Source: Flavobacteriales bacterium (lineage in GTDB: Bacteria; Bacteroidota; Bacteroidia; Flavobacteriales_D; Crocinitomicaceae). Taken from it: DNA of 41,071 nt. The stretch's first letter is position 1. Each line of letters starts with the position of its first letter. The notes under the pieces were generated by a model that ran no database searches, was not told where the DNA came from, and worked only from the letters and a program-made list of their open reading frames with translations. The translations under genes were made by a program, and so were the position numbers. Of this stretch, positions 104 through 31,753 are shown piece after piece. The DNA is taken from assembly GCA_009885545.1 (NCBI GenBank), contig VFKM01000148.1:1-41071 (forward strand), given 5' to 3'.

Positions 104-3100
104 TTATTTTTCTTCTAATTCAAGTTCAGTTTCTGTAACCAAAGTCCAAGTTAAACCAAATAAATCTATTTTGGCTTTTAATTCATCCATTTTATTATCA
201 GGAATTCGATATATTCTTAATTCAATTGATTCCTCAGTTTGAATAAATTCTCTTCTATAATTGTAACGCAACAACCAGTCGATGAAATCACCCGGTAATT
301 TTTTGCTACTAAACTTCACTGAAACAATAGACGATGGCTCATCATTAGCATCTAAAACGTATAGGGTATCAACATCATCCTTGAAATGATAAACTTGTGG
401 TAATTCATCTTTGGAATCTGCGATTGCCGATTTCACATGTTTGTCTATTTCATCATAATAGAAACTTCCATGGCTGTTGTAACGGTTCAAAACCTCACGA
501 GGGAATTCGTCAAATGTTTTCTTTGTAATAATTTGAACTCTTTCTAGTTTCTTTGTAACAACTTGCTCATCAGGGATGATAACTGTAGCAGATATGACTG
601 GGTCAACAACAGTCACTGGAGCAATCACCTTTCCTTCCAAAACACTGGCACCCTTTTCGTCCAACAATTTTTGAGCATCAGCCAATGTTATTCTTTCTCC
701 CTTGTAATAAGCCGTAATAAATGCATCTTGCACTCCTTTAGCAATTGCATCCAGTTTCTTAGGACGTGCATTGTCTATTGAAGTAAACATTCCAGTAGAA
801 TAACGGATTTGCCCATTCGGTAAACGCACTGTCATCAATGGAGTAATATTATGCACTGTATTTGCATTCACAGGTTTGTTGTAAACACCGATTTGAACTG
901 TAAAGAATAAACCTAAATATTTTTCTATCGGTTCAGCTTTCACTGCTCCTGGAGCTTTATTATATGTCAACTCATCCACTTTTATTTTCCTCAAAGTGTC
1001 TTCAAGACCCATAGAGATGGCAGTGTTTGTAGCCATTTCAAGAATTAGCTCATTTTCACCTTTTGCGACACATTCACCATTTGCTTCAAGTATTTTAGCC
1101 TCTGCCAATGAAATTCTTTTTCCATCGCAGTATGCTACAGCGAAAGCGTCTGCATATCCTAATCCTTTGATTTGATCTCTTACCTCTACAACTTTCTTAC
1201 TGTTATTGAAATAACCCGCCATGTATCTTGTAACACCATTATTCAATTTCTCTCCTGAAATCGGATTGAATTCTTTGAATAAATCTTGTGGAATTGGTTT
1301 AGCAAATGCACCAATTTGAACGCGATAAACTAATCCTGTAGGACTCTTAACATCAACTGGAATTGGTTTTGCTGCAGAATAAGTGTTTGTACCTTCAGCC
1401 TTAATATCTAAACCACTTGCAGGAAGTGGAACCAATGCAGCAAGAACAGCCAATCGTTTGATTGGTAAAATTCCTCTTTCAACAAGATTTTGCATTTTCA
1501 TCGCTTCTTCTGTATTCGCTGGCAAAGCTTCCTTTGCAATTTGTTGTTTTACTTTTAATTCACTTAGAAGCGTTTGTTTCTCCGCTTCCATTTGTTTGAT
1601 TTTTTCAACGTTCAATTGAAGTTTCGCTTGATTTTCTTCAGTTGGGCTGTCAATACTATTCTTAACCAATTCTTTTGTAATTGATTTTTCCAAGTTCAAT
1701 TGAGCATCTAAATTAGCAATTTGTTTTTCAACTTCCAATGCTGGTCTTGCCTTCTCTTCATAATTCTTATATTCTTCCGTTGCAGCTATTTCCTGTTCTT
1801 CAACAAAAGAAACACTATTTTTCATTGCATTAGGATCAGTTGTTGTTTCAATTTTTTCTTGTTGAGCAAGGCGCGCATCAATAGCTTCTAGCTGTTGCTG
1901 AACCAAAGTTCGTTGTTGAACTTTCTCTTTTCGTTCTTCATTTAAAGCAATTAATTCTTTTCCTTTTGCCTTAGAAATTTCATAATCCAATTCCTTGATT
2001 ATTCGGGTTAGTTCCCCAACTTGAATTGAAAAACGACGTTTCTTTTCTTCTAGCGTAATGTTTGATTCCAACGACGTAATCCCGTTTTCTTCTTCAAGTT
2101 GTTGTATTTTATTCTCAACAATTGCTTCTTTTAAAATATCATTCGCTTGTTTTTCCTTTTGTAAGGCGGTATTCAACAAGTAATTCTTTTCTTCTACACT
2201 TTTTGTTTCATTTGCTTCTTTTACCAAGGCTTCAACTTCTGTTGACAATGATTCTTGCTGTACAAGTGCCGCTTCAGAAGTTAATTTTGTTTCGTTATTT
2301 AATTGAGATCCTGCTTTCAGTTCATTTGTTTGCGTTTCGATGACTTTCTCTTTATTTGCAATTTCAGCGGTAATCAATTTGTTTTCTTGCGTCGTTTGCT
2401 CCTTTTGAACTTGAGTTAATTCTTTTTGAATAACTTGTTTTTCCTTTGGTGTTAATTCTGGATTCGTTAAATCACTTTGTAATTTGTTTTCTTTTTGATT
2501 CAATTCAGTCAACAAAGGGTCGTTGAATTCATTTCCTTCATTCGTTTCATCAGGGCCAGCAATTCTTTCCAATTCTCCGATAGAAATCTTCCATTGACGA
2601 CGTCTTTCTTGAACTTGCGTCAATTCTTCTTTCAACCAATTTACTTCCTCTTTCAATACTTCATTCTCAGCGTCATTTTTTAATTCGTTTGACTTCTCAG
2701 AAATTTGAGTTGAAAGCGCTTTTTCATAATTTGCAAGAATTGCATCTTGTTGTTTTAATTCCTCAATCGTCTTAAATTCATTAGTCATTGCGGCATTGTT
2801 CCCTTGCAATAAATCTTCTCTCAAATTATTTACAAATGCTGTTTGTTTGATTTCATTTTCAACAACATCAACATTTCCTGTTCTATAATTCTGCTCGTTT
2901 TCTTTGCTTTGAATCAATTCGTTTTTCAATACTTCATTCGCAGCAAGAATTTCTGGATTCTGCTTTTTCGCAAGGATCTTCTCATTGGCTGCAATTTGGG
3001 TTGCAATTCTTTCTTGATGAATGACTTCTCTTTCAGCTAAATCAGAATTTTTCGCATCCGAAGTTGAAGCTTTTAATTTTTCGATATCAGCAGAATAGTT

Positions 3101-6100
3101 TTCGTCAACTTTAGTAATGATTTCGGTTTCCTTAATTTGAGCATTCAATTCCGCATTTCGATCTGTTAATTCAGTTATAACAGCTTTTTGACTAACAATC
3201 AATTCTTGAACTGCTGCTAATTTCTGTTGAACTTTTTCGTCCGTTGGATTCTTGTCTAACAGTTTATTCAAACTCTTTTCTTCCAATTGAAGTTTTGTCA
3301 ACAACTCATTTTCCAATTTGATTTGCTCAGCAATTTTCTTATTCTCAACCATTCTAGAATTCGCCAATTCCTCTTTACGAGAAGTGTAATCTGGTAAAAC
3401 ATCGGCAATAATTTGTTCTTTGTCAAGTGTGTTATCAACAGATTCATTTGAATTGTTCAAGATATTTTTATTCTCAGCAATCAACTTTTCCGTTTCTAGC
3501 TGAATTGCTTCAAGAATTGCCAGTGCCTCTTTTAAGGAATTATCATTTGGTGATTGATTTAATCGTTCCTGAATATTGATTTTTTCAGTTGTCACTTTAT
3601 CATTGAAATCATTGTTCAACTTCAATAATTGCTCAGCTTTTTCTATGTTTGATAAATTACCATTTTCTTCTATACTTTCTTTTTGAGAAATGTAAGAAGG
3701 GTCTATTTCATCTATTTTATTCGATTTCGCTTGTGCAGTAACAGTCGATTCAGATGCTGCATTGTTTTTTTGTTCATTCAATCGTTCAATTGAGGATTGC
3801 AAATCAGATCGAATAGCTTCTAATTTCTTTCTTTCCTCTATTTTCACTTGATCCTCTGGATTGTTCATTAAGGCTTCTTCAATAGAAAACAATGCGTTAT
3901 TGACTTTCGCTAAAAGTGAAATTTCTTCATTCAAGAGTTTTTGAATTCTTTCAGATTCTTCAACATCCGATTTATTAATGTTCGTTATGTTGTCGAAGTA
4001 ATTAGGATCAATTTTATTAATTGTCGCTTCTTTCACTTCGTTACTCACACTTGCATTCACAGAATTTTGGTCAATTTGTTTTTGGCGATTCTCAATATTA
4101 TTTTCAAGTTCTTCACTAAGTGCATTTAATATTTGTTGCTCTTTTTTCAATTCAACAGAAGAAGGATTTTCCATCAATTGATTTTCTATATTTTCCAGTT
4201 GGTCGTATACTTTGCTCAATAATTGTCGATCCAATAATTGAATATTCTCAAGTTTTTCTAATGCCGTTTGATTGCTTTGCTCAATTGTATTTAATTCACT
4301 AAAATATTCTGAATTCAACTGATTAATAATTGCATCTTTCTCTTCTTTGGAAACAAATACAGCTGGTTCGTTAGAATTTAAAACAGCTTCATTTTGAACT
4401 ACTTTTTCTTTAATTTCTTTTTCGATTTGAGCTAAAACTGCTTGTTCTTTCAACAACGATTGATTTCCAGCATCTTTTTCTAATTGAGATTTAACAACTT
4501 GGTTCTTTTGCTGAATCTGGTTTAATAATGTCTTTTCTTCTTCCAGTAATTGTTGTGCTTTTTCCTTATCAGAAATTTCAGTTGAACTTTCAATTTCTTT
4601 TACATTTGATTCATATTCCTCAGAGATGTTATTGATCGCAGTTTGTTTTTCCTGTTCAGTGAAATTATCAATTGGCAATCCATTTTTAAGTGAAGCAATA
4701 TCACCATTGATAGCATTTATATTATTCTCTGTTTCCTTTTTTAATTCAGTTAAAACGATCATTTTGTTTTTGGCTTCAGCGTTGAAAGGATCATTGTCCA
4801 ATACTTTTTGAGCAATTACAATTTCAGCTTGAATTTTATCCAATAATTGCTGTTCTAACTTTAATTCTGAATTTTTCTTTTTCAAATCAGAATCGTTTCC
4901 TTTTGCAATACTTTCTCTTTTCGAACTATAATTAGGGTCTAGCTTATCACGAAGTAAATTCTTTTGTTCAATCAGACTTTCGGCTGATAATTCAACATTC
5001 GATTTACTTTCCATAATTTGAGCACGTTCTTCCATTCGTGATTCAATCAAGGATTTCAATTCTAATAACTTCGTCTTTTCTTCTTTTAGAGATTCATTAT
5101 TCGGTTGTTTCACCAATTGTTTGTCTAAAGCAACTATTTTAGCATCAATTGCCGTCATCAACTTTTGATCTTTTATCTGAAGTTGCGACATTTTCTCTTC
5201 CTGACTTAGTGAAGTATTCTCATTAATACTTACTACTTCTTTCGCATATCCAGGTTGAATTGTTTCAATTAATGCATTTGTTACTTCACTTGACGATTCA
5301 CTTGTTAACGAGTCAGGAATTTGCTTTTCTCTGTCTGCTATACTATTTTCCGTTGTTGCTTTTAATTCAACTAAAGCGGCTTTATTTTCTATTAAAGTTT
5401 CATTTGTTGGATCTAATTCTATCTTCTCTATGACTTTCTCTAATTCTTCTTCAATTTTCTCGATGAGCGATTTATCAATCTCATTGAGTGCTTTTGATTG
5501 TTCCTCATTCGTTAAATCAGTATTCGACTTCACCTCATCAATCTTCTGAGTATAAGTTGGATCTATTTGTGCAATAACTTCCTTACCACTTGGTGCTTCG
5601 TTGGTGTTGGTTAAAGCAAGTAATTCTGTATTTCTTTCAGTAATAGTTGATTGTGTTGTTGATTTAATTTCAGTCAAAGCTTCTTGCTTTCCGAGCAATG
5701 TTTTATCCGTTGGATTTTTTTTAAGTTGCGTGTTGACAGCTTTCAATTCTTTGTCAACAGTCATTAAGAATTTCTCGTCTTCCTGATTAAGTGCTTGTAA
5801 TTTCTCTTTCTCAGTCAGAGAATTATTCGTTGAAATCTGTTCCTTTCTAGTTTCAATCGTTGGGTCCAATTGAGCAGCAATCTCCTTCTCATTCAGCTTT
5901 TCGTTTGTGTTGGTTGAAGCAAGTAATTCTGTATTTCTTTGAGAAATAATTGCGTTGGTGTTTTCCTTAATCTGTGTTAATGATTTTAGTTTTTTCTGCT
6001 GTGTTTTATCGAAAGGACTTTCAGCTAAACCAGCAGAAACAACTTTTAATTCCTTATCAATGGCTGCAATTAATTTTTCATCTTCCTTGTTTAATTCTTC

Positions 6101-8899
6101 CAGTTTTTCAGAATCATTCAAGTTAACATTCGCTTCAATTGCCTTTCTCTCTTTATTGTAATCAGGCTGAATCGATTGAATGAGTTCATCCATATCATTA
6201 GACCCATCCTGCGACACAAGTGCTTCAACTTGTTTATCTCTATTGGCAATATTAATATCTAACGTTTCTTGGTATTTTAGAATTTCTTGTTTCTCTTTAT
6301 TTAAATTTTCATCAAACTTATTGTCAACAAGTAGTTTTTCAATTTCAGCTAATCGCTTATCTAGTAATTTATAGGTATTTCTGTCATTCTCTAAATGTTT
6401 GTAAACCTTATCTTCTTTGGATAGAACTGGATCATCTTGTATCCCTTTTGATGAGGCTGTATATTGCTCAAAAATATTATTCGCTTTCAACCCAGAAGTA
6501 ACGTTTATTCTTTCTTTCAAGGTTGGGTCTTTTTTCTCAAGTTCAAGTATTTGTTGGTTCACGTATGCGGTTAACGTGTTTGAATTAGTTTTTTCTGTTT
6601 CGGCTAACGCTGCACTTGCTTTTTCTTTACTAACAACGGCAATCGATCTATTAGAAATTGCATCCTGTAGAATTTGAATTTGTTTATTAACTAAGTACTT
6701 CTCTTGGCTTTTTTTATCAATTATATTTTGAATTTTATCCCGCTCCTCTTGAATTAGCACTATTTCAGCTTCTTTTTCTGCAATTTTTTGTTGAATTGCT
6801 GGAACCTCTTTGCTTTTAACCGAACCAATTGAGTTTTGAAGCGCTTGAATTTCAATCTCAAGTGTTTTAACATCCTTATTATAGCCATCAACCTTACCTT
6901 TCAATGAACTTATGTCATCGTCATATTTCACCACTTTTTCAACTAAATTTTGAACTAAATCTGTAGAATTATCTTTCAAAATAGTTTTTAATAAGTCTTT
7001 GTTTTCTACAATTAGTTGAACAGCCTCTTTTTCATTCCCTGCTTTAAACAACTCATCAAACTGTTTTGTAATTGCTGTCAGTTTTTGCTGATCAACGCCC
7101 AAACTAGATTTTGAAAGGACTTCTTTAATAGAGTCATTCAAATGCAGCAGGTCCTTCGAATATTTTTTGAGTTCATTTTGCTTGTTAATTAATGACTCTG
7201 CTTCTCTTAATAGAATGTATTTACTTTCTGTATCTTGCGTTTTGTTCGCTTCAGATACTTTTAATTTAATTTGTTCTTCAAGTGCTAAAAATTCGACTGC
7301 ATTTTCTACAACCAAATTATTGATATTATTCCCGATGCTATTAATTAAATTCGTGTTCTCAGATGCTTTTTTCATCTGTTGATTCAGTACATCAGAAACT
7401 TCTACCAGCAATAAATTACCCAATCCTAGCTCATCAAGAATTTCTTTATTGATTTTATCCTTTTGAACTTCATTCATGTCAAACTCATTAATATTGACAT
7501 TTAAATTCGAACGCATTTTTATCACTTCAGCTAAAACCGCTGCAGGGTCATCAACTTCTTCATCGAACAAATTCACAATCTTTACAACCTCTTTCCCTTC
7601 CTCCATTGTATGGATGATTTTTTGCTTTAGAGGTTTGAATTCTTTCATAAATGGAATGGAAACAACGAATTTATATTCTTGGTCACTTCCTTCAACTGTC
7701 ATGATATATTCATACTTTCCTCCCTTTGGGAAAGTGATCAAGTATACAGCTTTGTCATTTGAATTAAATTTCCCAATGATTTCACCATTCGCGTAATCTT
7801 TAATTTCAAAATTGATTCTTTTTATCTTAGGATCAATTTCCGAGAGAAAATTCCCTTTTACCACTGCTAATTGCAACGGCACCCTGTCAACATTCACTTT
7901 GTAAACAAATAATTTACCAGATTCACTCTGTCGTGCAGATGCAAAATAGGCGTCTTTGTTTAATGAATCTACGACATAAAACAGATCATCATCTGGAGAT
8001 GAAACAGCAAAATCCATATTTTCTGGTGGACCAAAAGAATTATTATCGACGTCAAACTTACTGCGGAATACATCGTATCCTCCCATCGAGTTGTGCCCTT
8101 TAGATGAAAAATACAAATAGTTTCCATCGGGGTGCATATATGGGAAATCTTCATCGAATTCAGTGTTTACATTACCTTGAATTGCTTGAGGCATACCCCA
8201 AGAACCATCAGGCAATCTCCTTCGAACATAAATATCTTTACCTGAATTACCATTGTCTCCATAACTTGAATAGTAAATTAATGAAGCATTTTTAGGAAAG
8301 TGAACTAACGGAATATGATTGTTTTTCTTATCTAATTTAGACTGGAAATCTGCTGTGACCAATAAATCCCCACCGATGTCTTTCAATTCGTATACACGAA
8401 AAAATTTATCTATTGTGATCTCTTTTTTCTCAGAAACAATTATATCCGTAATGGTAGTCATTAATCGCTTCCCATTTTGACACATTTGAATTGCCCTTTC
8501 CGTTTCTTCTACCTTATTACCTCCTGGACTTTTTTCTAAATAGAAATTATATTGTTTAATTGCCTCATTGAATTGGTAATTTAAATGCAATGCTTTACCT
8601 AGAAAATAATAAGCATCAGGCGAAGTGGCAGGGTCATTTACAGAAAAAGACAAGTATTTTATTGCTTCTTGCTTATTGTTTGAGTTAAACAAGAGGCAAG
8701 TCCCATATTTGTAATTATAAGATGCGTCTCTTGGTTGAAGGGATAGCAAACGTAAATACAAAGACGTGGCTTCTAGGTACTGTTCTAAATCGAACAGTTT
8801 ATCAGCTTGTGCCTTCATTTCTATCTCTGTTTGCGCCTTACTAAAAAAGGAGAAAAAGATAACAATCAAGAGTATTACTCTATGTTTTTTAATGCTCAC
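104..8899 (-). CDS. Giant (2931 aa) exported protein: signal peptide, TPR, PD40/WD40-like propeller, carboxypeptidase-regulatory-like segment, long repetitive helical region, two SPOR-like modules
   Basis: Signal peptide MSIKKHRVILLIVIFFSFFSKAQ; TPR-like N-terminus; PD40-like motifs (FDEDFPYMHPDGNYLYFSSKGHNSMGGYDVFRS); ~101-aa repeats beginning [DQ]PxY; YRVQIGAF and FFTVQIGVY SPOR-like starts near the C-terminus. Confidence 0.9.
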   Translation of the reverse strand: MSIKKHRVILLIVIFFSFFSKAQTEIEMKAQADKLFDLEQYLEATSLYLRLLSLQPRDASYNYKYGTCLLFNSNNKQEAIKYLSFSVNDPATSPDAYYFLGKALHLNYQFNEAIKQYNFYLEKSPGGNKVEETERAIQMCQNGKRLMTTITDIIVSEKKEITIDKFFRVYELKDIGGDLLVTADFQSKLDKKNNHIPLVHFPKNASLIYYSSYGDNGNSGKDIYVRRRLPDGSWGMPQAIQGNVNTEFDEDFPYMHPDGNYLYFSSKGHNSMGGYDVFRSKFDVDNNSFGPPENMDFAVSSPDDDLFYVVDSLNKDAYFASARQSESGKLFVYKVNVDRVPLQLAVVKGNFLSEIDPKIKRINFEIKDYANGEIIGKFNSNDKAVYLITFPKGGKYEYIMTVEGSDQEYKFVVSIPFMKEFKPLKQKIIHTMEEGKEVVKIVNLFDEEVDDPAAVLAEVIKMRSNLNVNINEFDMNEVQKDKINKEILDELGLGNLLLVEVSDVLNQQMKKASENTNLINSIGNNINNLVVENAVEFLALEEQIKLKVSEANKTQDTESKYILLREAESLINKQNELKKYSKDLLHLNDSIKEVLSKSSLGVDQQKLTAITKQFDELFKAGNEKEAVQLIVENKDLLKTILKDNSTDLVQNLVEKVVKYDDDISSLKGKVDGYNKDVKTLEIEIQALQNSIGSVKSKEVPAIQQKIAEKEAEIVLIQEERDKIQNIIDKKSQEKYLVNKQIQILQDAISNRSIAVVSKEKASAALAETEKTNSNTLTAYVNQQILELEKKDPTLKERINVTSGLKANNIFEQYTASSKGIQDDPVLSKEDKVYKHLENDRNTYKLLDKRLAEIEKLLVDNKFDENLNKEKQEILKYQETLDINIANRDKQVEALVSQDGSNDMDELIQSIQPDYNKERKAIEANVNLNDSEKLEELNKEDEKLIAAIDKELKVVSAGLAESPFDKTQQKKLKSLTQIKENTNAIISQRNTELLASTNTNEKLNEKEIAAQLDPTIETRKEQISTNNSLTEKEKLQALNQEDEKFLMTVDKELKAVNTQLKKNPTDKTLLGKQEALTEIKSTTQSTITERNTELLALTNTNEAPSGKEVIAQIDPTYTQKIDEVKSNTDLTNEEQSKALNEIDKSLIEKIEEELEKVIEKIELDPTNETLIENKAALVELKATTENSIADREKQIPDSLTSESSSEVTNALIETIQPGYAKEVVSINENTSLSQEEKMSQLQIKDQKLMTAIDAKIVALDKQLVKQPNNESLKEEKTKLLELKSLIESRMEERAQIMESKSNVELSAESLIEQKNLLRDKLDPNYSSKRESIAKGNDSDLKKKNSELKLEQQLLDKIQAEIVIAQKVLDNDPFNAEAKNKMIVLTELKKETENNINAINGDIASLKNGLPIDNFTEQEKQTAINNISEEYESNVKEIESSTEISDKEKAQQLLEEEKTLLNQIQQKNQVVKSQLEKDAGNQSLLKEQAVLAQIEKEIKEKVVQNEAVLNSNEPAVFVSKEEKDAIINQLNSEYFSELNTIEQSNQTALEKLENIQLLDRQLLSKVYDQLENIENQLMENPSSVELKKEQQILNALSEELENNIENRQKQIDQNSVNASVSNEVKEATINKIDPNYFDNITNINKSDVEESERIQKLLNEEISLLAKVNNALFSIEEALMNNPEDQVKIEERKKLEAIRSDLQSSIERLNEQKNNAASESTVTAQAKSNKIDEIDPSYISQKESIEENGNLSNIEKAEQLLKLNNDFNDKVTTEKINIQERLNQSPNDNSLKEALAILEAIQLETEKLIAENKNILNNSNESVDNTLDKEQIIADVLPDYTSRKEELANSRMVENKKIAEQIKLENELLTKLQLEEKSLNKLLDKNPTDEKVQQKLAAVQELIVSQKAVITELTDRNAELNAQIKETEIITKVDENYSADIEKLKASTSDAKNSDLAEREVIHQERIATQIAANEKILAKKQNPEILAANEVLKNELIQSKENEQNYRTGNVDVVENEIKQTAFVNNLREDLLQGNNAAMTNEFKTIEELKQQDAILANYEKALSTQISEKSNELKNDAENEVLKEEVNWLKEELTQVQERRRQWKISIGELERIAGPDETNEGNEFNDPLLTELNQKENKLQSDLTNPELTPKEKQVIQKELTQVQKEQTTQENKLITAEIANKEKVIETQTNELKAGSQLNNETKLTSEAALVQQESLSTEVEALVKEANETKSVEEKNYLLNTALQKEKQANDILKEAIVENKIQQLEEENGITSLESNITLEEKKRRFSIQVGELTRIIKELDYEISKAKGKELIALNEERKEKVQQRTLVQQQLEAIDARLAQQEKIETTTDPNAMKNSVSFVEEQEIAATEEYKNYEEKARPALEVEKQIANLDAQLNLEKSITKELVKNSIDSPTEENQAKLQLNVEKIKQMEAEKQTLLSELKVKQQIAKEALPANTEEAMKMQNLVERGILPIKRLAVLAALVPLPASGLDIKAEGTNTYSAAKPIPVDVKSPTGLVYRVQIGAFAKPIPQDLFKEFNPISGEKLNNGVTRYMAGYFNNSKKVVEVRDQIKGLGYADAFAVAYCDGKRISLAEAKILEANGECVAKGENELILEMATNTAISMGLEDTLRKIKVDELTYNKAPGAVKAEPIEKYLGLFFTVQIGVYNKPVNANTVHNITPLMTVRLPNGQIRYSTGMFTSIDNARPKKLDAIAKGVQDAFITAYYKGERITLADAQKLLDEKGASVLEGKVIAPVTVVDPVISATVIIPDEQVVTKKLERVQIITKKTFDEFPREVLNRYNSHGSFYYDEIDKHVKSAIADSKDELPQVYHFKDDVDTLYVLDANDEPSSIVSVKFSSKKLPGDFIDWLLRYNYRREFIQTEESIELRIYRIPDNKMDELKAKIDLFGLTWTLVTETELELEEK
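3107..6169 (-). repeat. Ten consecutive ~101-aa tandem protein repeats (an 11th starts at 3106; a degenerate one at 6529)
   Basis: First-codon positions of the aligned [DQ]PxY-type motif: 6169, 5866, 5563, 5257, 4939, 4624, 4315, 4009, 3703, 3397, 3106. Spacings: 303, 303, 306, 318, 315, 309, 306, 306, 306, 291 nt. Confidence 0.9.
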
Positions 8900-8945: not shown

Positions 8946-9566
8946 CTATTTTTTAAAAAGGTTCATCTTCGCCTCTTCTCCTTTCATTAGTCTAACGATG
9001 TTTTGTCTATGTGCAAAAATGACAAGAAAGCTTAATAAAATACTGAAGCTAAAAAGCCAATTAGAATCTTCTTCAATTACAAATCTAACGACAAGTGGGA
9101 AAGACAATGCTGCAACCATTGCTCCAAGAGAAACAAATTGAAACAAAATGAATACAATTAGAAAAAGTACAACACATATTAAAGCCGCTATGGGCTGTAA
9201 TCCAATTATTACACCTAAAGATGTTGCTACTCCTTTTCCTCCTTTAAATTGAGCAAAGATTGGAAATACATGGCCAATAACTGCTAAGATCGCAGCAATT
9301 ATTTGAATTTGAATAATAAGATCTTTTTCAATTGTTGAATTTAAAAAAATCATCGGTAAAAATGTGGCTAAAGCCCCTTTTGCTATATCGATTGATAGCA
9401 CAAAAATCCCTGGTTTTTTTCCTAATACCCGAAATGTATTAGTTGCCCCAGCATTCTTACTACCGTGCTCTCTTACATCAATATTATACCACGCTTTTCC
9501 AACCCAAACGGCAGAAGGAATTGACCCTAGTAAATATGCAATAATTGAAAAGATTAAATATTCCAT
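8946..9566 (-). CDS. plsY: Glycerol-3-phosphate acyltransferase PlsY
   Basis: GSIPSAVWVGK, DVREHGSKNAGATNTFRVLGKKPG and AQFKGGKGVATSLG motifs; polytopic membrane protein. Confidence 0.95.
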   Translation of the reverse strand: MEYLIFSIIAYLLGSIPSAVWVGKAWYNIDVREHGSKNAGATNTFRVLGKKPGIFVLSIDIAKGALATFLPMIFLNSTIEKDLIIQIQIIAAILAVIGHVFPIFAQFKGGKGVATSLGVIIGLQPIAALICVVLFLIVFILFQFVSLGAMVAALSFPLVVRFVIEEDSNWLFSFSILLSFLVIFAHRQNIVRLMKGEEAKMNLFKK

Positions 9567-12500
9567 TATTTTTCAAATAATTGTAAGAACCTACTCTTAT
9601 AAATTTGAGAAGTACTTGATTCAAATTTAAAATTCTTTGTTTTTCGCTTATCCTCTTTAATCGCATTAACAGCTGTATTAAAATCGACATCGTCAGAAAC
9701 GATTTTCATATCACCTTCTTTTTTGACCATAGAATAATCAAAATAATAATCTCGCCCACCAGGGATTGAAATTAAAAGCCCGAAGTGGTCTCCTCCACTT
9801 TCAGAATAAATCTGTTGAAAGAAAGCTTTCATAGGAACATATTTCATAATTGGTTTTTCAAACATGTTAACTAGTACAGCTGATTCCACACTTGATATTA
9901 TTCCTTTTTCTTGAGAAGAATATTTATCATAAGACGACAAACGTAATCCAGTGATTGTCATTGCCTTTTCTAATTGTTGTGGCAGTTTTTTAATTTCTCC
10001 TTTAATTGTGTAATCAGACTTTATTTTATCTGCAGTTTTTAAATCTGTCCATTCTACCAATGCCTCTTCAAAAGTTGTAGAACTAAAATCCATTGGTTCC
10101 AAACCTTCTACTACATTGATTCTAGTTGCTACATCTTCCATAGTACCTTTATCAAGAGCCATATTAAATCTAGTGGTAAGATTCATTGAAGTTTCTCCTG
10201 TTCCCTGATTATAGTTTACAACGCCCACAGCATCAACTGCAACGTCCCCATAATCCATTCCTAAATTCACGACACCCATTCCGTTGAGAGAACAACTTTC
10301 AGTATGAAGAGCCAAGAAATTTCCTTTTTCTGTTCTATTTAACAGCTTTTCTTTAGAAGCAATTTGGAATTCTTTAGCTGAATAATTATATTGTAAAAAA
10401 CCACTTGCAGTCATTACCACTGGGTCATTTACATCTGTTAATTGTGAAAGGAATGTTGGATATAATTTTATACTATCTGTGTCACGAGAATTACGCCAAA
10501 TGATACCAGCAGAAATTGCTTCTCCGTCCAAATTTTTCATTTTCGCAGAAACAGGAATTTGGATATTTTTCGGATCAATTGACGCGCTAAAACTCATCCA
10601 GGTTTTATCGAATTTCTCGCAGTTGTGGTGAATTCTTGTTGCACCTTCAAAATTGATTAAAGGGTTTGACGCTAAGATTGAAACTTTTCCGTAATAATCA
10701 AATTCCGGACTTAACTTAAATCCAGCATTATTATCAATCGCACCACTAGCAATTGTTTGATATGATGTGTCTAAGGTGATTTTCTTCATTTGAAAATAAG
10801 TCAAAACACTATCTTTATCATAATATGGATATTCTCCATTCCCTAGGTAGGCTCTTTTTGCTGTTATCTCAACATTTGCTTTTGTAAAGGTGTGGTATTT
10901 TGTAATGTAATTCGCAACAATTTTAGAATTTGTAAATGGTTCCATTTTTGCCTTCTTATGAATTACAACTTTCATACTATCAGGATATATTCTGGCATCG
11001 GCAACTTCAATAAATTCAACTTTTTCACAAAAAATAGTTCTTAATTTCAAATCATATTTTGCGACTGGTGCTCTAAATTGAAGGGAATCTTGATCTGGAT
11101 GAACTGAAAAGAAATTAGGTCCAACTAAATCCATGTCTGTGTCAATCGTAATATCTTTTTCGCCAGTTTTATCTAGTTGCAATTCAGCGTAATCCATGAA
11201 CCAGGAAAACTTATCCATTCTACAGATATATTGATTTACTGGGAAATTCACTTGAGAAGAACCTTTATTTGACTTAAATTCTCCCATTCTTTCTTTAAAC
11301 GAAATATGCGCTTCAACATTGTCTGCTTGAAAAGCTAGCGGGTCTTCACCAGCCTCTGCAAACGTATTTCTTAGAGAGAATCCAGAGGTATCAGCGTCAA
11401 TATCCCACCTTTTAAAATTATAATCATCAGAAACAGTTGTAGCAGTTTTAAATGTAATTAAACCATTCCCTCTCATTCCCTTTGGAGTTACAATTGCTTG
11501 GCCTCTTAATTTTGCTTCAGCTTTAAAGAAAAGCAAATCACTTTTGGGTGTTGATTGAGCGCGTAAAAAATTCTTTTTTGGAACATACGTAATAAACGCT
11601 TCTTCAGATTCAACGTCTGGAAATTGCACATCCACTTCAATCGGTTTATTAGAAAATTGGGCTAAACCAATTGTTGAATCTGGCAAGAAATTAAGCGCTT
11701 TAGATGTAGATGTTGAATGAACAAAGTTTATGACACCCGCACCTTGTAATCCATTGAATGAAAGTACAATTTTGTTTTCATATTTTGCTCCTGGGCCATA
11801 AAAATCAAACCCTCCAGGAGGTGCTTGAGTCGCAAATCCAAAAGAATAATCCGCCATAATTTTTAAGTCTTCCGTAATTTTAGGAAAAATCCCAGCTGAA
11901 GTTAATTCTCCTTTAAAACGCATTGTTTTTTCACTAAAATCATCCAAGCTATCCATTTCAAATGGCGCAACAGTATAAAAGAACCGAGTACTATCATAAA
12001 CGCCTCTGAATACAGATTTATCATTATAGTAGACAAAAGTAGGTTTGGTTGATTTTATTTTAGGATATCCTACTATTGTTTTATTCTTACCTGATCGATT
12101 TGTTGGATCATCAACAAAAATTTCACCTTTTATCCCAGTAATATTACTAACCATTGGAATAGGTTTTGTTCCATCTGCTTGTTGCAATGGTCTTACTCTA
12201 AAGATTGATTCACCTGATTTTAATATATTGAATTTGTTATCACGGTAATTGAAATTTGCAGAGTACGTATTCATTTCAAGTTTACCTATGTTTAACCAAC
12301 CACTAAACTCGAAATTTCTATTTTCTTTTAAGATAACCCTACTTTCATCTGGAAAAACTGTAGTGTTCTGTAAATCTGATATTTTCACCCTATCTACAGC
12401 GTTCAAATCAATTTCCAACGTCCCAAGATTCATTTTACCGAAATAGGTCATCAATCTTCGATCTTCAGATTGTTTTTTATATAATTCCTTGAGTGTTCCT

Positions 12501-14188
12501 AGATTTGGATCTTCTTTGATTTGCTCATCTGTATAGCCTTTCAACTCTTTTGGTCTTAAATCGGATGTAAAGAGTAAGTTATCATAATCTTTTTTCCCTG
12601 CTTTACCTTGAACAAAATTATCAAGTTTAGGATTTACAGTAATCAACTTAGTTTCTAAATCGTAATTAATGAATCCCATACTAGATAATTCAATTAACAA
12701 TGGTTTAACCTGCTCAAGTGTTTTTCCTAACGCTGTTGCAGCCTTACCATCATTGATTATATATTCATCATATTTATAACAATATCTTGAAATTGCTGCT
12801 AATGGATGAACTGTTTCTAAGCCTTGTAACCTGTCGTATAATCGTTCATCAAAATAACCTTTGGATTCAAAATTTGCAACTCTCTGTTCTTGTGACGTTC
12901 CAAAATCAAACGTGTAATAAATATCTTGTTCGTCTACTTTCCAAGTGATTTTTGGGACATAAATATCCACCATATGATAAGAATCAAGAAAAGGAGACAT
13001 TCCATTTCCTGTATTTGTTCGAACCAATTCAACTATCTTTTTTTCAAGATCAAACCGAAGATTCAATCCACTGTGCGTTATTGAGTCTCCTGTATTTAGA
13101 TACAACGCAGTTGCTGCATTATTACTAGAAATTTTAGTTGGCGAGACAAAAATGTATTGAGCACTTACCTTAATAAAAACAGTGCTATTTCTATAAATTA
13201 AAATTTTTGCAGGATCTACAGGGGTGCCAATTCCAACAAAGCTTGCACCCTGCATTGAAAACCCACCATCATAATCAACATTTTCTTTAATATTCTTTAT
13301 TCTCAACCTCTTTTCATACGATAAAAATTGAGGAAAAACTTTATCTTCTTCACGATTTATAGTAAATGCCTTGTCAGTCAATTGACCTAATATAGGCTTA
13401 GCAAAATATTTAGAAGTTAAAGCAACTGAATCTGCAGAAAGGTTAGGCGTTTTAAGTGAAACGTCGTATTTTTTTAAGGTTCCAAATGTTTCAGATTTTG
13501 GTAAACCAACTTTCTCCCACGTAATGGTTCCTCCAAGTCCATCCCATTTTTTTAAAACTGGATCGTATGTCCCACTTGTTTTAAAAACAACCAAACTATC
13601 AATATATGGTTGATCCTTTTTTGTTTTCATATCACGGTTTTCCACGCGACAAATTAAGTTACCATTTGAACATTTAATAAAAGGCTTATCTGTAAATTCA
13701 AATGAATATTCACCCCCCTCATAAAACCATTTAAAATTAGAGGACTCTGCTATTTTTCTTTCTGAAAAAAATCCTGCAGATAAGTCAATAAAATCTTCAA
13801 ATTTCTTAACGTTTGTTTTATCCAATAATTTTTCAACAGTGCCATGCCAAGCTTGAAAACTAGCATTTGATTGTTTGGCATTTACTAATGAATATACAGA
13901 AAAAACATATTGATAAATTTCAGGAAAAGGACTCATTTTTTTTGTTTCCATCAAATTGCAAGTCTCTACCATTTTAGTAAAATAAGCATCGGAAAAAAGT
14001 GATGTCTGAAGTAACATTGTCGGTAAAGTTTTCTTTGCAAAATCATGAAATTCTCCCTTACCATAATCTGTTAATGATTTTTGAAATTCTTTGGTGAATT
14101 TTTCTCTATCATTCGAAAAAGTTTGAGAAAAAGAATAGAATGAACATATCATCCCACATAATAAAAGAACCCTTTTTACTACCATCAT
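9566..14188 (-). CDS. Large (1540 aa) exported beta-rich protein of unknown function
   Basis: Signal peptide MMVVKRVLLLCGMICSFYSFSQ; long beta-prone sequence; stop overlaps the plsY start (TAATG). Confidence 0.85.
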   Translation of the reverse strand: MMVVKRVLLLCGMICSFYSFSQTFSNDREKFTKEFQKSLTDYGKGEFHDFAKKTLPTMLLQTSLFSDAYFTKMVETCNLMETKKMSPFPEIYQYVFSVYSLVNAKQSNASFQAWHGTVEKLLDKTNVKKFEDFIDLSAGFFSERKIAESSNFKWFYEGGEYSFEFTDKPFIKCSNGNLICRVENRDMKTKKDQPYIDSLVVFKTSGTYDPVLKKWDGLGGTITWEKVGLPKSETFGTLKKYDVSLKTPNLSADSVALTSKYFAKPILGQLTDKAFTINREEDKVFPQFLSYEKRLRIKNIKENVDYDGGFSMQGASFVGIGTPVDPAKILIYRNSTVFIKVSAQYIFVSPTKISSNNAATALYLNTGDSITHSGLNLRFDLEKKIVELVRTNTGNGMSPFLDSYHMVDIYVPKITWKVDEQDIYYTFDFGTSQEQRVANFESKGYFDERLYDRLQGLETVHPLAAISRYCYKYDEYIINDGKAATALGKTLEQVKPLLIELSSMGFINYDLETKLITVNPKLDNFVQGKAGKKDYDNLLFTSDLRPKELKGYTDEQIKEDPNLGTLKELYKKQSEDRRLMTYFGKMNLGTLEIDLNAVDRVKISDLQNTTVFPDESRVILKENRNFEFSGWLNIGKLEMNTYSANFNYRDNKFNILKSGESIFRVRPLQQADGTKPIPMVSNITGIKGEIFVDDPTNRSGKNKTIVGYPKIKSTKPTFVYYNDKSVFRGVYDSTRFFYTVAPFEMDSLDDFSEKTMRFKGELTSAGIFPKITEDLKIMADYSFGFATQAPPGGFDFYGPGAKYENKIVLSFNGLQGAGVINFVHSTSTSKALNFLPDSTIGLAQFSNKPIEVDVQFPDVESEEAFITYVPKKNFLRAQSTPKSDLLFFKAEAKLRGQAIVTPKGMRGNGLITFKTATTVSDDYNFKRWDIDADTSGFSLRNTFAEAGEDPLAFQADNVEAHISFKERMGEFKSNKGSSQVNFPVNQYICRMDKFSWFMDYAELQLDKTGEKDITIDTDMDLVGPNFFSVHPDQDSLQFRAPVAKYDLKLRTIFCEKVEFIEVADARIYPDSMKVVIHKKAKMEPFTNSKIVANYITKYHTFTKANVEITAKRAYLGNGEYPYYDKDSVLTYFQMKKITLDTSYQTIASGAIDNNAGFKLSPEFDYYGKVSILASNPLINFEGATRIHHNCEKFDKTWMSFSASIDPKNIQIPVSAKMKNLDGEAISAGIIWRNSRDTDSIKLYPTFLSQLTDVNDPVVMTASGFLQYNYSAKEFQIASKEKLLNRTEKGNFLALHTESCSLNGMGVVNLGMDYGDVAVDAVGVVNYNQGTGETSMNLTTRFNMALDKGTMEDVATRINVVEGLEPMDFSSTTFEEALVEWTDLKTADKIKSDYTIKGEIKKLPQQLEKAMTITGLRLSSYDKYSSQEKGIISSVESAVLVNMFEKPIMKYVPMKAFFQQIYSESGGDHFGLLISIPGGRDYYFDYSMVKKEGDMKIVSDDVDFNTAVNAIKEDKRKTKNFKFESSTSQIYKSRFLQLFEK

Positions 14189-14193
14189 ATTAT

Positions 14194-14201
14194 CAAATTT
14201 A
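14194..14201 (-). promoter_or_regulatory. Bacteroidota -7 element (TAAATTTG) for the 1540-aa gene
   Basis: Exact TAnnTTTG on the minus strand, 5 nt before the ATG at 14188; uses the TAA stop of prmA. A TTG lies about 22 nt upstream. Confidence 0.5.
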
Positions 14202-15035
14202 TTTTTTTAATTCTATAGCTGCCCAATTATCTTTATTCAATATCCTGTATTTACTTAGACCTAATGATTCAGCAATTGTTACTAATTCATCTACGTCTGA
14301 ATCAAAAAATCCACTCAATAAAAGTGTTCCATTTTGATTTAACATTTTAGCATAAGCTGGTAAATGAGCTTTCAAGACATTTTTGTTAATGTTGGCAAGA
14401 ATCAAACCAAAAGATTGACCTTCGACCATTTCTATATTTCCACAAATTGCTTCAATTTTGGAACAGTTGTTTCTCTCCGAGTTTTCTATAGTATTCTCTA
14501 CTGACCAATCCTCGATATCAACAGCTACAATTTTATCAGCTCCTAATTTCTCTGCTACAATAGCTAAAACACCTGTTCCAGTGCCCATGTCCAAAACCTC
14601 TGATGGCATTGAATCTAGTTCAAACAGCGCCTTTGACATCATCCAAGTAGTCTGATGATGACCCGTTCCGAAAGACATTTTTGGTTGAATTTCAACCAAC
14701 ATTCCTTCTAGGCTTTCTTTTTCATGAAATGGTGCATGAATAGTTAAATATTTTTCTACTTCTACAACTTGAAAGTCCGCTTCCCAAAGTGCATTCCAGT
14801 TTTGTTGTGGAATAATTTTCGCTTCCCATTGAGCTACAAAATCAGCTGTATCGTTTTTTAATATCGTGTTATTTATTGGATCAAAATTATTGACCAATGT
14901 AACTTGACCAAAAGCTTGAATTCCCGTTTCTGTTTCAACAAAACTTTCATAGCCATTTTCCGCTAATTCGGTCAATAGAATTTCCGACCAAGGATCTTTG
15001 GGTACAATGTTTACAGTTAATTCTAAATAATCCAT
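14199..15035 (-). CDS. prmA: Ribosomal protein L11 methyltransferase PrmA
   Basis: KMSFGTGHHQTTWMM and VLDMGTGTGVLAIVAEKLGA SAM-methyltransferase motifs; LILANINKNVL. Confidence 0.95.
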   Translation of the reverse strand: MDYLELTVNIVPKDPWSEILLTELAENGYESFVETETGIQAFGQVTLVNNFDPINNTILKNDTADFVAQWEAKIIPQQNWNALWEADFQVVEVEKYLTIHAPFHEKESLEGMLVEIQPKMSFGTGHHQTTWMMSKALFELDSMPSEVLDMGTGTGVLAIVAEKLGADKIVAVDIEDWSVENTIENSERNNCSKIEAICGNIEMVEGQSFGLILANINKNVLKAHLPAYAKMLNQNGTLLLSGFFDSDVDELVTIAESLGLSKYRILNKDNWAAIELKK

Positions 15036-15784
15036 TAAAACGATTTTACTATTGAAATGAATGTTTCGGTCTTTAAAGATGCGCCACCAATGAGGCCACC
15101 GTCTACATTTGGACAGGCAAATAACTCATTTGCATTAGATGCGTTACAACTTCCACCGTATAAAATTGAAATCGAATTTGCTATCTCTTGGTTATAACAT
15201 TCAGCAACCCACATTCGAATAGCGCAATGCATTTCTTCAGCTTGCTCAATCGTTGCAGTTTTACCTGTTCCAATCGCCCATATAGGCTCATAAGCAATAA
15301 TACATTTTTGAATTTCCGAATTCGAAAGGTGAAACAAACTATCAATAAGTTGTTGTTTAACGTACAACGATTGTGTGTTCCCTTCTCGAATACTCAAAGG
15401 TTCACCACAACAAAACACAACTCCAATTTCATGTTCAATTGCCGAGTCAACTTTTAGTTTAATCAGCTCATTTGACTCTTGAAAAATTTCACGTCGCTCG
15501 CTGTGACCAATTAAAGCATGGGTAGCTCCACAATTCTTAATTTGAGAAATAGAAACTTCTCCAGTAAAAGCACCGCTTTCTTTTGGGTAAAAATTTTGAA
15601 CACCAACTTTTAAATGACTTTTTATCTTATCTATTTCCACTAAAAATAAAGTTGGTGGAAAAATCAATAGTTCCACATCCAATATATCTTTGGCTTCTGC
15701 AGCGATATCCTCAACAAGTTGAATAGCATCATTTAATTGCAAATTCATTTTCCAATTGCCTGCAACAATTTTTTTTCTAATCAT
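15035..15784 (-). CDS. tpiA: Triosephosphate isomerase
   Basis: MIRKKIVAGNWKMN, ALIGHSERRE, IIAYEPIWAIGTGKTA, ILYGGSCNASNANEL, GLIGGASL. Confidence 0.98.
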   Translation of the reverse strand: MIRKKIVAGNWKMNLQLNDAIQLVEDIAAEAKDILDVELLIFPPTLFLVEIDKIKSHLKVGVQNFYPKESGAFTGEVSISQIKNCGATHALIGHSERREIFQESNELIKLKVDSAIEHEIGVVFCCGEPLSIREGNTQSLYVKQQLIDSLFHLSNSEIQKCIIAYEPIWAIGTGKTATIEQAEEMHCAIRMWVAECYNQEIANSISILYGGSCNASNANELFACPNVDGGLIGGASLKTETFISIVKSF

Positions 15785-19032: not shown

Positions 19033-20151
19033 ATGAGGTTAATATTTACGTCACTCTTTATTGTTTTTACGTCCAATTTTGTTTTTGCCCAACCTATTGC
19101 AATAATTTCTCCTTCGACAACAACAGTATGTGCGGGTCAATCCATAATTTTTAATAGTGCAAGCACGGGAACAAACCTTAACACTTGGACTTGGTCATTT
19201 GGTAGTGGATTACCTGGGACAGCAAATACCACCGGCCCTCATAGTGTCACATTTCCTTTTGTAGGTTCGTTTAATGTCTGGCTTCAAGTAGAAGATGATT
19301 TTGGTATAGATGATACCACAATACTGATTACTGTCGTTGCTTGTAGTTCTCCTACAGCTGCTTTTGCAATTTCGGATAACGCTATCTGCGAAAACGACTG
19401 TATTACTTACGATAATAACTCAACAACCTCAGGTCCAACTACTTATTTATGGACATTTAGTGGTGGATCACCTGCAACGTCTACAGCATATACACCAACC
19501 TCAATTTGCTATAGCACCTCGGGTACTTATACAACTTCGCTTTTAGTAACAAATTCCTTTGGGAATAATACATATTCACAAAACATTACTGTTCTAGTAC
19601 CTCCAACGATAGTTGCTACCGGTAGTAATTCAGTTGCAGTTGAACCTGGAACGCTTATACAAGTTACTGCTGCTTCTTCACCAGGAGTTATTACGTGGAC
19701 TGCAAATCCATCCAGTCAATTATCAAATTTGGTTTGCGATCCACCTGATTGCTCGGGAGCAAATATAACTGCTGTTTTAACAACAATTTACACAGCAACT
19801 ATAACGACAGATGAGACTTGTACATCAACAGATACGCTAAAAATCACAATTAGCTCTCCAGTAGGTGGATTCACGGTTGGTGTTCCAAATATGTTCTCAC
19901 CTGATGGAAATCCAGACAATGCTATTCTTTATGTTCGAAGTTTTAATGACGTTTTGATATCAACTATGACTTTCAGAGTATTCAATAGATATGGTCAAAT
20001 AGTTTTTGAATCTACTGATCCATCAATCGGATGGGATGGACGTTTTAAAGATAAGGAAGAAAACGCTGGAGTTTTTGTTTACACACTTGATTATGAGCTT
20101 GTTGATGGAACATCTGGTTCAACAAGTGGTAATGTAACATTAGTAAGATAA
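19033..20151 (+). CDS. Secreted PKD-domain protein with a type-B (gliding-motility-associated) T9SS C-terminal domain
   Basis: Signal peptide; PKD-like segments (NTWTWSFGSG, TYLWTFSGGSP); C-terminus VPNMFSPDGNPDNAILYVRSF...FRVFNRYGQIVFESTDPSIGWDGRFKDKEENAGVFVYTLDYEL. Confidence 0.9.
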   Translation: MRLIFTSLFIVFTSNFVFAQPIAIISPSTTTVCAGQSIIFNSASTGTNLNTWTWSFGSGLPGTANTTGPHSVTFPFVGSFNVWLQVEDDFGIDDTTILITVVACSSPTAAFAISDNAICENDCITYDNNSTTSGPTTYLWTFSGGSPATSTAYTPTSICYSTSGTYTTSLLVTNSFGNNTYSQNITVLVPPTIVATGSNSVAVEPGTLIQVTAASSPGVITWTANPSSQLSNLVCDPPDCSGANITAVLTTIYTATITTDETCTSTDTLKITISSPVGGFTVGVPNMFSPDGNPDNAILYVRSFNDVLISTMTFRVFNRYGQIVFESTDPSIGWDGRFKDKEENAGVFVYTLDYELVDGTSGSTSGNVTLVR

Positions 20152-20156
20152 GAATT

Positions 20157-21188
20157 ATGAGAAATAAAATTACATATACGCTTTTATTGACTGCCATTTG
20201 CTCGTTAAATGCTTTTACTCAACAGGACAAACATTTAAGTATGTGGAATGAAAACACATCACAAATTAATCCAGCAGCAGTTGGAATTATGGACGAGAAT
20301 CTTCGTTTCTTAACTAATTTCAGAATACAATGGCTTCCTATTACGGGAAAGGCTTTTAGAACGAATACATTCTCATTTGATACAAAAATTATAACGAGTA
20401 AAATTTCAGATAGCCACTTAGGAATCGGAATAAATTTTTATAATGATCAAACAGGAGATTCTAAATTCATGACCAACAGTTTTTCTGTGCCTATTGGATA
20501 TAACATAGAAATAGACAGAAAAAATTCTTTCTCTCTTGGTATTTCTCCAGGATATATTTCTCAAACATTAATCGGAGGAAACCAAACATGGAACAACCAA
20601 TGGAATGGCTTTAAGTTCGATCAAACTATCGTTAACCCAGAAACGTATAATCAAAAAAATGCGGGTTTTGATATTGGCGCTGGTGTGCAATACAAAGTTG
20701 CTTTTGATGCTACCTCACACATTACTGCTGGGATATCAATGAATCATATAAATCAAAAACAGGATGAGATGTTTAAACAATTTAACTTTCATTTAAGTGC
20801 AACAAAATTTGATTCATATAGACGTTTTGGTTTTTCACCGCAAGTTTTAGTTTCCTTGATGGGCCCAAATAATAATATATTGATAGGTTCATCTTTCGAT
20901 CATGAACTTTTTGAAAGTTCTCAGCGTACGGATTACGTGCAACGCTCATTTATTTCTTACGGATTTTTCATGAGGTGGAGGGATGCACTGATAATTACAG
21001 CTTCATTCAAAACTAAAGGATTTAAATTCGGTTTGGGTTATGATTTAAATTTATCGAAATTAAGTTCTGCTACTAGGTCTTCAGGAGCAATTGAACTTTT
21101 CTTAAAATATTCGATTGTTTCAGATCCAAATGCAAAAATTGGTGATAGAAAATTATTCCGTTGGAAAGGCGGAGGCGGAGGATTGTAA
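20157..21188 (+). CDS. PorP/SprF-family type IX secretion system membrane protein
   Basis: QQDKHLSMWNENTSQINPAAVGIMDENLRFLTNFRIQW N-terminus; beta-barrel pattern; 5 nt after the CTD-bearing gene. Confidence 0.92.
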   Translation: MRNKITYTLLLTAICSLNAFTQQDKHLSMWNENTSQINPAAVGIMDENLRFLTNFRIQWLPITGKAFRTNTFSFDTKIITSKISDSHLGIGINFYNDQTGDSKFMTNSFSVPIGYNIEIDRKNSFSLGISPGYISQTLIGGNQTWNNQWNGFKFDQTIVNPETYNQKNAGFDIGAGVQYKVAFDATSHITAGISMNHINQKQDEMFKQFNFHLSATKFDSYRRFGFSPQVLVSLMGPNNNILIGSSFDHELFESSQRTDYVQRSFISYGFFMRWRDALIITASFKTKGFKFGLGYDLNLSKLSSATRSSGAIELFLKYSIVSDPNAKIGDRKLFRWKGGGGGL

Positions 21189-30602: not shown

Positions 30603-31718
30603 TCAAAGTTGAACAAACTTTCCTCCTGTCATTTTAAATTTCAAGCCATTCAACTTTATTGTTTTTCCTTCACCAATTTTTGCTACGTCTATTAAATCTT
30701 CTTCCATTGTGTGTAAAGAACCTCCAGTTGCATATGCGATATCCAAATACAAGGTATTCATTCTATCTGTTACACCACAAACAATGATTTTAATTGGAAT
30801 TTTCTGACTTTTTAGATAACTCAAAAGTTCCATATCACAAGGGTTCTCCCAATTATCTGCAATAAGCACAACATTCTGTTTATTTTCAGGATATTTTTTA
30901 ATTGCGTAGCAAATTGCTTCCAAGTTATTTTCAATATGGTCGCCTTTTTCCATTGCTTCTAAAGCCATCTCTATAACCTTTTTAGAATTCCCTGATTCAA
31001 TACTCCACATTCCCGTTTGGTCATTAACAACAGTTTGATTTGTACTATGATAATCATTGTCATTAAAAAACACGATTTGTTTGAATGTTTTTATTGTTTG
31101 ATTACTTTTTATCCATAACAATATTTGTGAGGTGTATGGAGCCATACTTCCCGTAACATCGCAGACCACGAGCATATCTTTCCATGTACTATTGCGACTT
31201 ACAACTTTTAATATTGTAGAATCTTCTGGAGCCTTTTTTCCATCGATAATATCCGTAATACTCGTGTTTTCTGATTGATATGTAGGCATTGGTCTATAAT
31301 AGACAACAAAACCATGGAAATAATTATGGATATTACCTGTTTGTTCAACTCCTGTTTGTTTAACCAATTGCCATTTAATAATTGTACTATTAAATGCTTT
31401 GGGCAAATTCATGTGTAACTCTAAAATTCGCATTCGATTTAATTCTGTAAAATCCTCGCCTACCGGATAATCGGAATAAACCAAATCAATACCAACAATT
31501 GTTTGATCACTTAATTTTTGAATAACATCTAGATTATTTATTTCATATTCTCCGGGATCCATTGTGATTTTCACATTTGAAAAACCATTATTTTCAGGTG
31601 CATATTTCGCGACGACAATTGTGTCTTTGAAACGAATATTGACCTTAACATTTACTTGAGCTGTGACAGACCCTTTAATCAAAAGAATCAATATCAAAAT
31701 GGAGAGTGAAGATTTCAT
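30603..31718 (-). CDS. Secreted von Willebrand factor A-like protein (start moved from 31757)
   Basis: MKSSLSILILILLIKGSVTAQ signal peptide at 31718; MIDAS-like DVTGSMAPY. Confidence 0.8.
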   Translation of the reverse strand: MKSSLSILILILLIKGSVTAQVNVKVNIRFKDTIVVAKYAPENNGFSNVKITMDPGEYEINNLDVIQKLSDQTIVGIDLVYSDYPVGEDFTELNRMRILELHMNLPKAFNSTIIKWQLVKQTGVEQTGNIHNYFHGFVVYYRPMPTYQSENTSITDIIDGKKAPEDSTILKVVSRNSTWKDMLVVCDVTGSMAPYTSQILLWIKSNQTIKTFKQIVFFNDNDYHSTNQTVVNDQTGMWSIESGNSKKVIEMALEAMEKGDHIENNLEAICYAIKKYPENKQNVVLIADNWENPCDMELLSYLKSQKIPIKIIVCGVTDRMNTLYLDIAYATGGSLHTMEEDLIDVAKIGEGKTIKLNGLKFKMTGGKFVQL

Positions 31719-31753
31719 ACTGCTATAATAACTTTCAATCGAAAGGTAACAAA

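Follow-up and report, generated by a model that had tools for sequence, protein, structure and literature searches.

At one end of the window, by which we mean the whole 41,071-nucleotide stretch of DNA that was analysed, lies a gene for a giant protein of 2931 amino acids (Table 1). The open reading frame was intact, with its stop codon at 104-106, and its 3' end adjoined the contig edge. Orthologues from the same genus were 2833 and 3033 aa long and shared 73-76% identity over their longest aligned parts. An earlier sequence-only reading had reported the frame without giving its strand; the intact frame and the presence of orthologues confirmed it, and it lies on the minus strand. An assembly or chance artefact was ruled out, as similarly built homologues were present in many independent genomes. 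The domain order of the protein was a signal peptide, a TPR domain, a PD40 propeller, a CRD-like sandwich, about 2040 helical residues, two SPOR modules and an alpha/beta domain.

Table 1. Features of the giant-protein gene and its neighbours, with the basis of each assignment
Feature	Position	Strand	Basis or remark
Giant-protein gene	104..8899	-	2931 aa, GTG start at 8899
Signal peptide, residues 1-22	8834..8899	-	Predicted: sequence; Q23 invariance; Q-rule
TPR domain, residues 25-146	8462..8827	-	Pfam (weak), family profile vs PDB, AF2/Foldseek
PD40 beta-propeller, residues ~150-341	7877..8452	-	Pfam PD40; partial NCBIfam PorE/CHU_0125 matches; AF2
CRD-like beta-sandwich, residues 345-443	7571..7867	-	AF2 only
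Long helical hairpins, residues 447-803	6491..7561	-	AF2
13 three-helix modules of ~101 aa, residues 807-2104, last 2 weak	2588..6481	-	Autocorrelation, repeat HMM with shuffled control, AF2
Second helical stretch and linker, residues 2105-2490	1430..2587	-	AF2
SPOR module 1, residues 2523-2606; putative glycan-contact Gln2528, Arg2558	1082..1333	-	Profile, Pfam, AF2; contacts by analogy (PMC6895207)
SPOR module 2, residues 2664-2753; putative glycan-contact Gln2669, Arg2699	641..910	-	Profile, Pfam, AF2; contacts by analogy (PMC6895207)
C-terminal alpha/beta domain, residues 2787-2922	134..541	-	AF2, family alignment, profile comparison
plsY, conserved neighbour	8946..9566	-	Pfam/NCBIfam, synteny
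1540-aa orphan exported protein, conserved neighbour	9566..14188	-	Domain scans, synteny, class sample
prmA and tpiA, upstream end of conserved block	14199..15784	-	Pfam/NCBIfam, synteny
M48 peptidase, example at locus L169	13508-14308	+
M48 peptidase, example at locus L107	11613-12455	+

The arrangement tpiA-prmA-[1540-aa protein]-plsY-giant was kept through the taxonomic order, with plsY sometimes missing. The 1540-aa orphan gave no convincing Pfam, NCBIfam or PDB match. It was present in 172 of the 198 genomes sampled from class Bacteroidia, mostly at about 1450-1550 aa, and as a class-wide protein it deserves a study of its own. Orphan and giant were neighbours in 37 of the 99 genomes with the giant, a set that includes many fragmented drafts. 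An M48 family peptidase was encoded beside or close to the giant on its downstream side in some 19 loci from other families. The conserved block contained no T9SS genes. Elsewhere in the window, outside this block and on the other strand, a PKD/CHU_C type IX cargo gene followed by PorP/SprF was observed (19033-21188, +), a usual pair in the phylum. Three long ORFs (384, 875 and 691 aa) at 30603-34381 (-) and 38952-41027 (-) had no Pfam match at E 1e-5.

The signal peptide and the residues that follow it read ...FFSKAQT, with Gln23 as the likely mature N-terminus. Gln23 was taken as the predicted mature start because it was invariant in the family alignment and fits the Bacteroidetes Q-rule, by which Gln is expected directly after the cleavage site (PMC10653852). 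Inspection of the sequence revealed no Cys after the signal peptide, and therefore no lipobox or lipoprotein signal. Pfam and NCBIfam scans of the giant gave no match to type IX secretion-signal families, and a protein with no such match should remain periplasmic. By its sequence, the giant is predicted to be a soluble periplasmic protein without a lipid anchor.

The N-terminal head was supported by several lines of evidence of differing strength. The Pfam TPR_16 match was weak (E 5e-4, below cut-off); the family profile matched many solved TPR structures, and Foldseek on the AF2 head model returned TPR matches at E about 0.002. The PD40 match at residues 243-278 exceeded the Pfam cut-off. The AF2 model of residues 1-1120 (mean pLDDT 82, pTM 0.48) placed TPR helices at 25-146, propeller-like strands up to residue 341, a beta-sandwich at 345-443 and helices only thereafter. 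There was no Pfam match to CRD in the giant, and the CRD-like assignment was drawn solely from the AF2 sandwich; with that qualification, the TPR, PD40 propeller and CRD order of the PorE and CHU_0125 type was present. The signal peptide, TPR, PD40 and CRD-like N-terminus proposed from the sequence alone held up, and domain searches found similarity to all three of TPR, PD40 and SPOR.

The helical region extended from about residue 447 to 2490 (AF2), and its autocorrelation peaked at 101-102 residues. A repeat profile seeded on three units of the giant's own ~101-aa period found 13 modules between residues 807 and 2104, 9-15 in seven same-genus homologues and 16 in one longer relative; no modules were found by this profile in shuffled copies. 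In the AF2 model, each module comprised three helices, one short and kinked and two some 32 residues long, and low-confidence linkers separated the modules. More distant families kept a long helical middle of variable length, without a clear 101-aa period. The modules resemble spectrin-type repeats in being tandem three-helix units of ~100 aa, a likeness in size and helix number only that implies no homology; in contrast to spectrin, they are joined by low-confidence linkers and not by one continuous helix. The sequence-only reading had put the helical sequence at more than 1800 aa, which the model extends to about 2040, and had argued against a single extended helix in favour of probable fold-back, which the ~100-aa three-helix modules of the AF2 model support. 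By a rough estimate from helix lengths, the helical part at full extension may exceed the width of the periplasm, and such an excess would make a simple radial tether unlikely.

The SPOR modules were missed by a Pfam scan of the full-length protein; when the tail region was scanned alone, it scored 22.2 bits against a cut-off of 21 (PF05036). SPOR was matched by all 16 family members in the tail alignment (Pfam, best 1.5e-7), and the only PDB match of the tail profile was the CwlC SPOR domain 1x60, at E 0.004. The AF2 model of residues 1830-2931 (mean pLDDT 83, pTM 0.41) was helical as far as about residue 2490, after which came two SPOR-like modules of sheet and helix and then a further domain of alpha/beta type. 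Set against the b-a-b-b-a-b fold of SPOR, the pattern b-bb-a-b occurred twice in the tail, with the sheet and second helix present and the first SPOR helix absent in both modules. Foldseek on this C-terminal model gave nothing below E 0.1. As the pTM values of both models (0.48 and 0.41) were low, the models do not fix the relative placement of the giant's parts. The glycan-contact Gln (RlpA Q270, FtsN Q251; PMC6895207) was kept in 32 of 32 modules examined, and the position equivalent to RlpA R309 and FtsN R285, the basic contact (PMC6895207), was basic in all 32 (29 R, 3 K). The giant shares the SPOR beta-sheet and the conserved Gln and basic contact positions with FtsN, DamX, DedD, RlpA and CwlC (PMC6895207), from which it differs in having two modules without the first helix, a periplasmic chain of ~2500 aa and no visible membrane anchor. 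Peptide-stripped glycan, the ligand of SPOR domains, is enriched at septa, and the SPOR proteins known so far have roles in division or morphogenesis (PMC6895207). The sequence thus makes the SPOR pair a likely peptidoglycan anchor of the giant, and its fold and conserved contact positions suggest that the tail would grip denuded glycan. Both the two C-terminal SPOR-like modules and their likely role as anchor had been proposed earlier, and both held up, the modules by Pfam, the CwlC profile match and AF2. The C-terminal domain at 2787-2922, absent from that earlier list of domains, was family-specific, conserved in Crocinitomicaceae relatives, and carried a conserved FPRDVLNRYN...FYYDE motif. 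A third SPOR at this position was rejected, as hhalign found no SPOR similarity; a third SPOR does occur in other families.

The giant was matched in all 40 relatives, and giant frames were present throughout the order, with Fluviicola, Brumimicrobium and Taishania among the named relatives; these names suggest a Fluviicola-like member of the Crocinitomicaceae as the source of the window. In the class sample, the head was found in 99 of 198 Bacteroidia genomes (head profile, E below 1e-100). The head-bearing frames of at least 1400 aa numbered 78 (1488-2931 aa, median 2049), and the remaining matches are probably shorter relatives or frames cut by contig ends. The head was not found outside the class in the phylum sample, where the best match reached 8e-42 over the PD40 part only. 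Relatives spanned 1488-3621 aa in total length, and both of their ends were conserved. Two families of relatives (1183-1676 aa) had the head and no convincing SPOR, which indicated that the head can work without a SPOR tail. A relative of 604 aa (L170) combined a TPR-PD40-like head with just one SPOR-like end. It is plausible that the ancestor was compact and that the helical spacer was added later. Proteins of 477-479 aa with a TPR-PD40 head near that of the giant and a short helical tail were also observed (L171, 2643-4076, +; L172, 2710-4149, +), the former in a genome with no SprA or GldJ match. Proteins of about 760 aa at two further loci (L173, 1328-3604, +; L174, 1170-3455, +) had an apparent outer-membrane barrel, a low-complexity linker and a C-terminal SPOR pair of the giant's type, a further example of SPOR in the place expected for OmpA. 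No curated family specific to the giant was found, and no named or studied counterpart (a protein with both SPOR and PD40, or a SPOR protein of gliding or T9SS) appeared in the literature searched, most subscription journals and preprints lying outside its coverage. This agreed with the earlier statement that no named system is known with this architecture, yet the protein is common in the class. The giant is real and widely conserved, within the reach of the searches it has neither a name nor a characterisation, and it is a variant among the TPR-PD40-CRD envelope proteins.

The relation of the giant to PorE was partial. PorE (PG1058) of the Porphyromonas gingivalis T9SS has TPR, PD40 and CRD followed by a peptidoglycan-binding C-terminal module (PMC7192894), and the giant has the same domains in the same order before a putative wall-binding module. 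PorE, however, is a lipoprotein with a length of about 670 aa and OmpA_C at its end. The giant lacks a lipobox, its propeller region is shorter by some 75 aa, and it has ~2000 helical residues and a SPOR tail where PorE has OmpA_C. NCBIfam PorE scored 77 bits against a cut-off of 600, with the match limited to residues 205-349, and no C-terminal OmpA domain was matched in the giant. The best-scoring curated family for the head was CHU_0125 (NF053607, 89.6 bits, cut-off 620). CHU_0125, a TPR-PD40-OmpA 'Pal' of 656 aa with a role in outer-membrane integrity (PMC5891637), shares the head type with the giant and differs in its OmpA tail and lack of repeats. Both PorE and CHU_0125 associate with the outer membrane (PMC7192894, PMC5891637). 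Without CHU_0125 this membrane is destabilised: deleting the gene in Cytophaga hutchinsonii led to an about six-fold rise in vesicle release and to greater sensitivity to harmful compounds (PMC5891637). The genome that carries the giant also holds a 715-aa PorE-like frame that carries PD40 and OmpA domains and matches the whole of the NCBIfam PorE model (430 bits over 3-648, short of the 600-bit cut-off). Several more of its OmpA-tailed proteins have heads of this type. When the heads were placed in one tree, a branch with 98/96 support separated all SPOR-tailed proteins and their short relatives from these OmpA-tailed ones; some OmpA branches were long and inner placements therefore unsure. 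The sequence-only reading had proposed a PorE-like protein whose peptidoglycan anchor was replaced. The architecture and the SPOR anchor stood, but a PorE with its anchor swapped in place was rejected, as a full-length PorE-like protein is retained, the SPOR-tailed heads fall in a clade apart and there is no lipobox.

We tentatively read the giant as a soluble periplasmic scaffold, with its SPOR tail on the wall and its head docking envelope proteins, likeliest at newly processed wall during division, and we give this reading somewhat less than an even chance. By this mechanism, Sec would export the protein and signal peptidase I would free Gln23, as the sequence suggests. The C-terminal SPOR pair would hold peptide-stripped glycan strands of peptidoglycan, and the TPR-propeller-CRD head would dock outer-membrane or periplasmic partners, as is thought for the heads of PorE and CHU_0125. 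The chain of three-helix modules would separate the two ends, and its length would alter by module gain or loss, as the repeats and length variation observed suggest. SPOR ligands are concentrated at sites of amidase action, mainly septa, so the likeliest task would be to keep newly processed wall aligned with the outer membrane or its assembly factors in division. We infer the glycan binding, the docking, the septal place and the role itself from these features. Across class Bacteroidia the two ends of the giant are conserved while its middle varies freely, which favours a scaffold. The same genome encodes an Amidase_3-SPOR protein, which could make denuded glycan. The invariant glycan-contact positions, the conserved gene block with plsY and the orphan, and CHU_0125 as the best curated match of the head also speak for this reading. 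If SPOR of this type were a general wall anchor in the class, that would be in keeping with the SPOR pairs on the ~760-aa barrel-like proteins. Counting against the reading are the missing first SPOR helix, a Pfam score only just over the cut-off, the relatives that have a head and no convincing SPOR, and the length that the helical part may reach.

The variation in module number (9-16 in long forms) and in length between conserved ends could also be read as that of a general, non-septal spacer or ruler between outer membrane and wall, a Bacteroidia counterpart of the Lpp, Pal and OmpA tethers whose reach is set by repeat number. The same SPOR tail type on probable outer-membrane barrels fits such a spacer. 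We consider a spacer unlikely, as the giant has no lipid anchor or barrel of its own, the low-confidence linkers in AF2 fit a flexible chain better than a ruler, and canonical SPOR ligands are enriched at the septum and not wall-wide (PMC6895207). An accessory part in T9SS or gliding, in which the PorE-like head would dock T9SS outer-membrane parts and the SPOR tail would fix them to the wall, seems similarly improbable. Among curated families, the head is nearest to CHU_0125 and the T9SS protein PorE; SprA is in nearly all giant-bearing genomes, and two related loci (L116, L122) have a PKD protein and a PorP-like protein one gene from the giant. However, a head present in only half of the sample is not that of a required T9SS part when SprA (191 of 198) and GldJ-like matches (193 of 198) are near universal; the giant's genome keeps its separate PorE-like protein, the conserved neighbours are not T9SS genes, and the genome of the close 477-aa relative (L171) has no match to SprA or GldJ. 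Co-occurrence itself was uninformative on a T9SS or motility role because both markers are near universal in the sample.

The conserved neighbourhood offers another reading, in which the giant is the wall-bound subunit of a complex with the adjacent 1540-aa exported protein, an unnamed envelope-biogenesis pair. The two genes adjoin in over a third of giant-bearing genomes (37/99), their synteny runs through the order even where the intervening plsY is missing, and no giant-bearing genome was found among the listed genomes without the orphan, a co-occurrence that carries no correction for phylogeny. We regard such a pair as quite unlikely, as the orphan occurs in many genomes without the giant (172 against 99 of 198) and the synteny extends to prmA and tpiA, for which no functional link is evident. 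A bolder proposal, to which we attach only low probability, joins the pair to the septal scaffold as a class-wide Bacteroidia envelope machine, in which the SPOR-anchored giant and the orphan would couple outer-membrane assembly to septal wall processing, replacing or acting beside Tol-Pal.

The head of a periplasmic protein of 1500-3600 aa occurs in about half of sampled Bacteroidia, yet no curated family and no study of it were found. One type of head, TPR-PD40-CRD, is paired with either OmpA or SPOR as wall anchor, and with a spacer whose repeat number differs. The giant thus bears on the linkage between outer membrane and wall in Bacteroidia, and it offers a testable pair of neighbouring genes.
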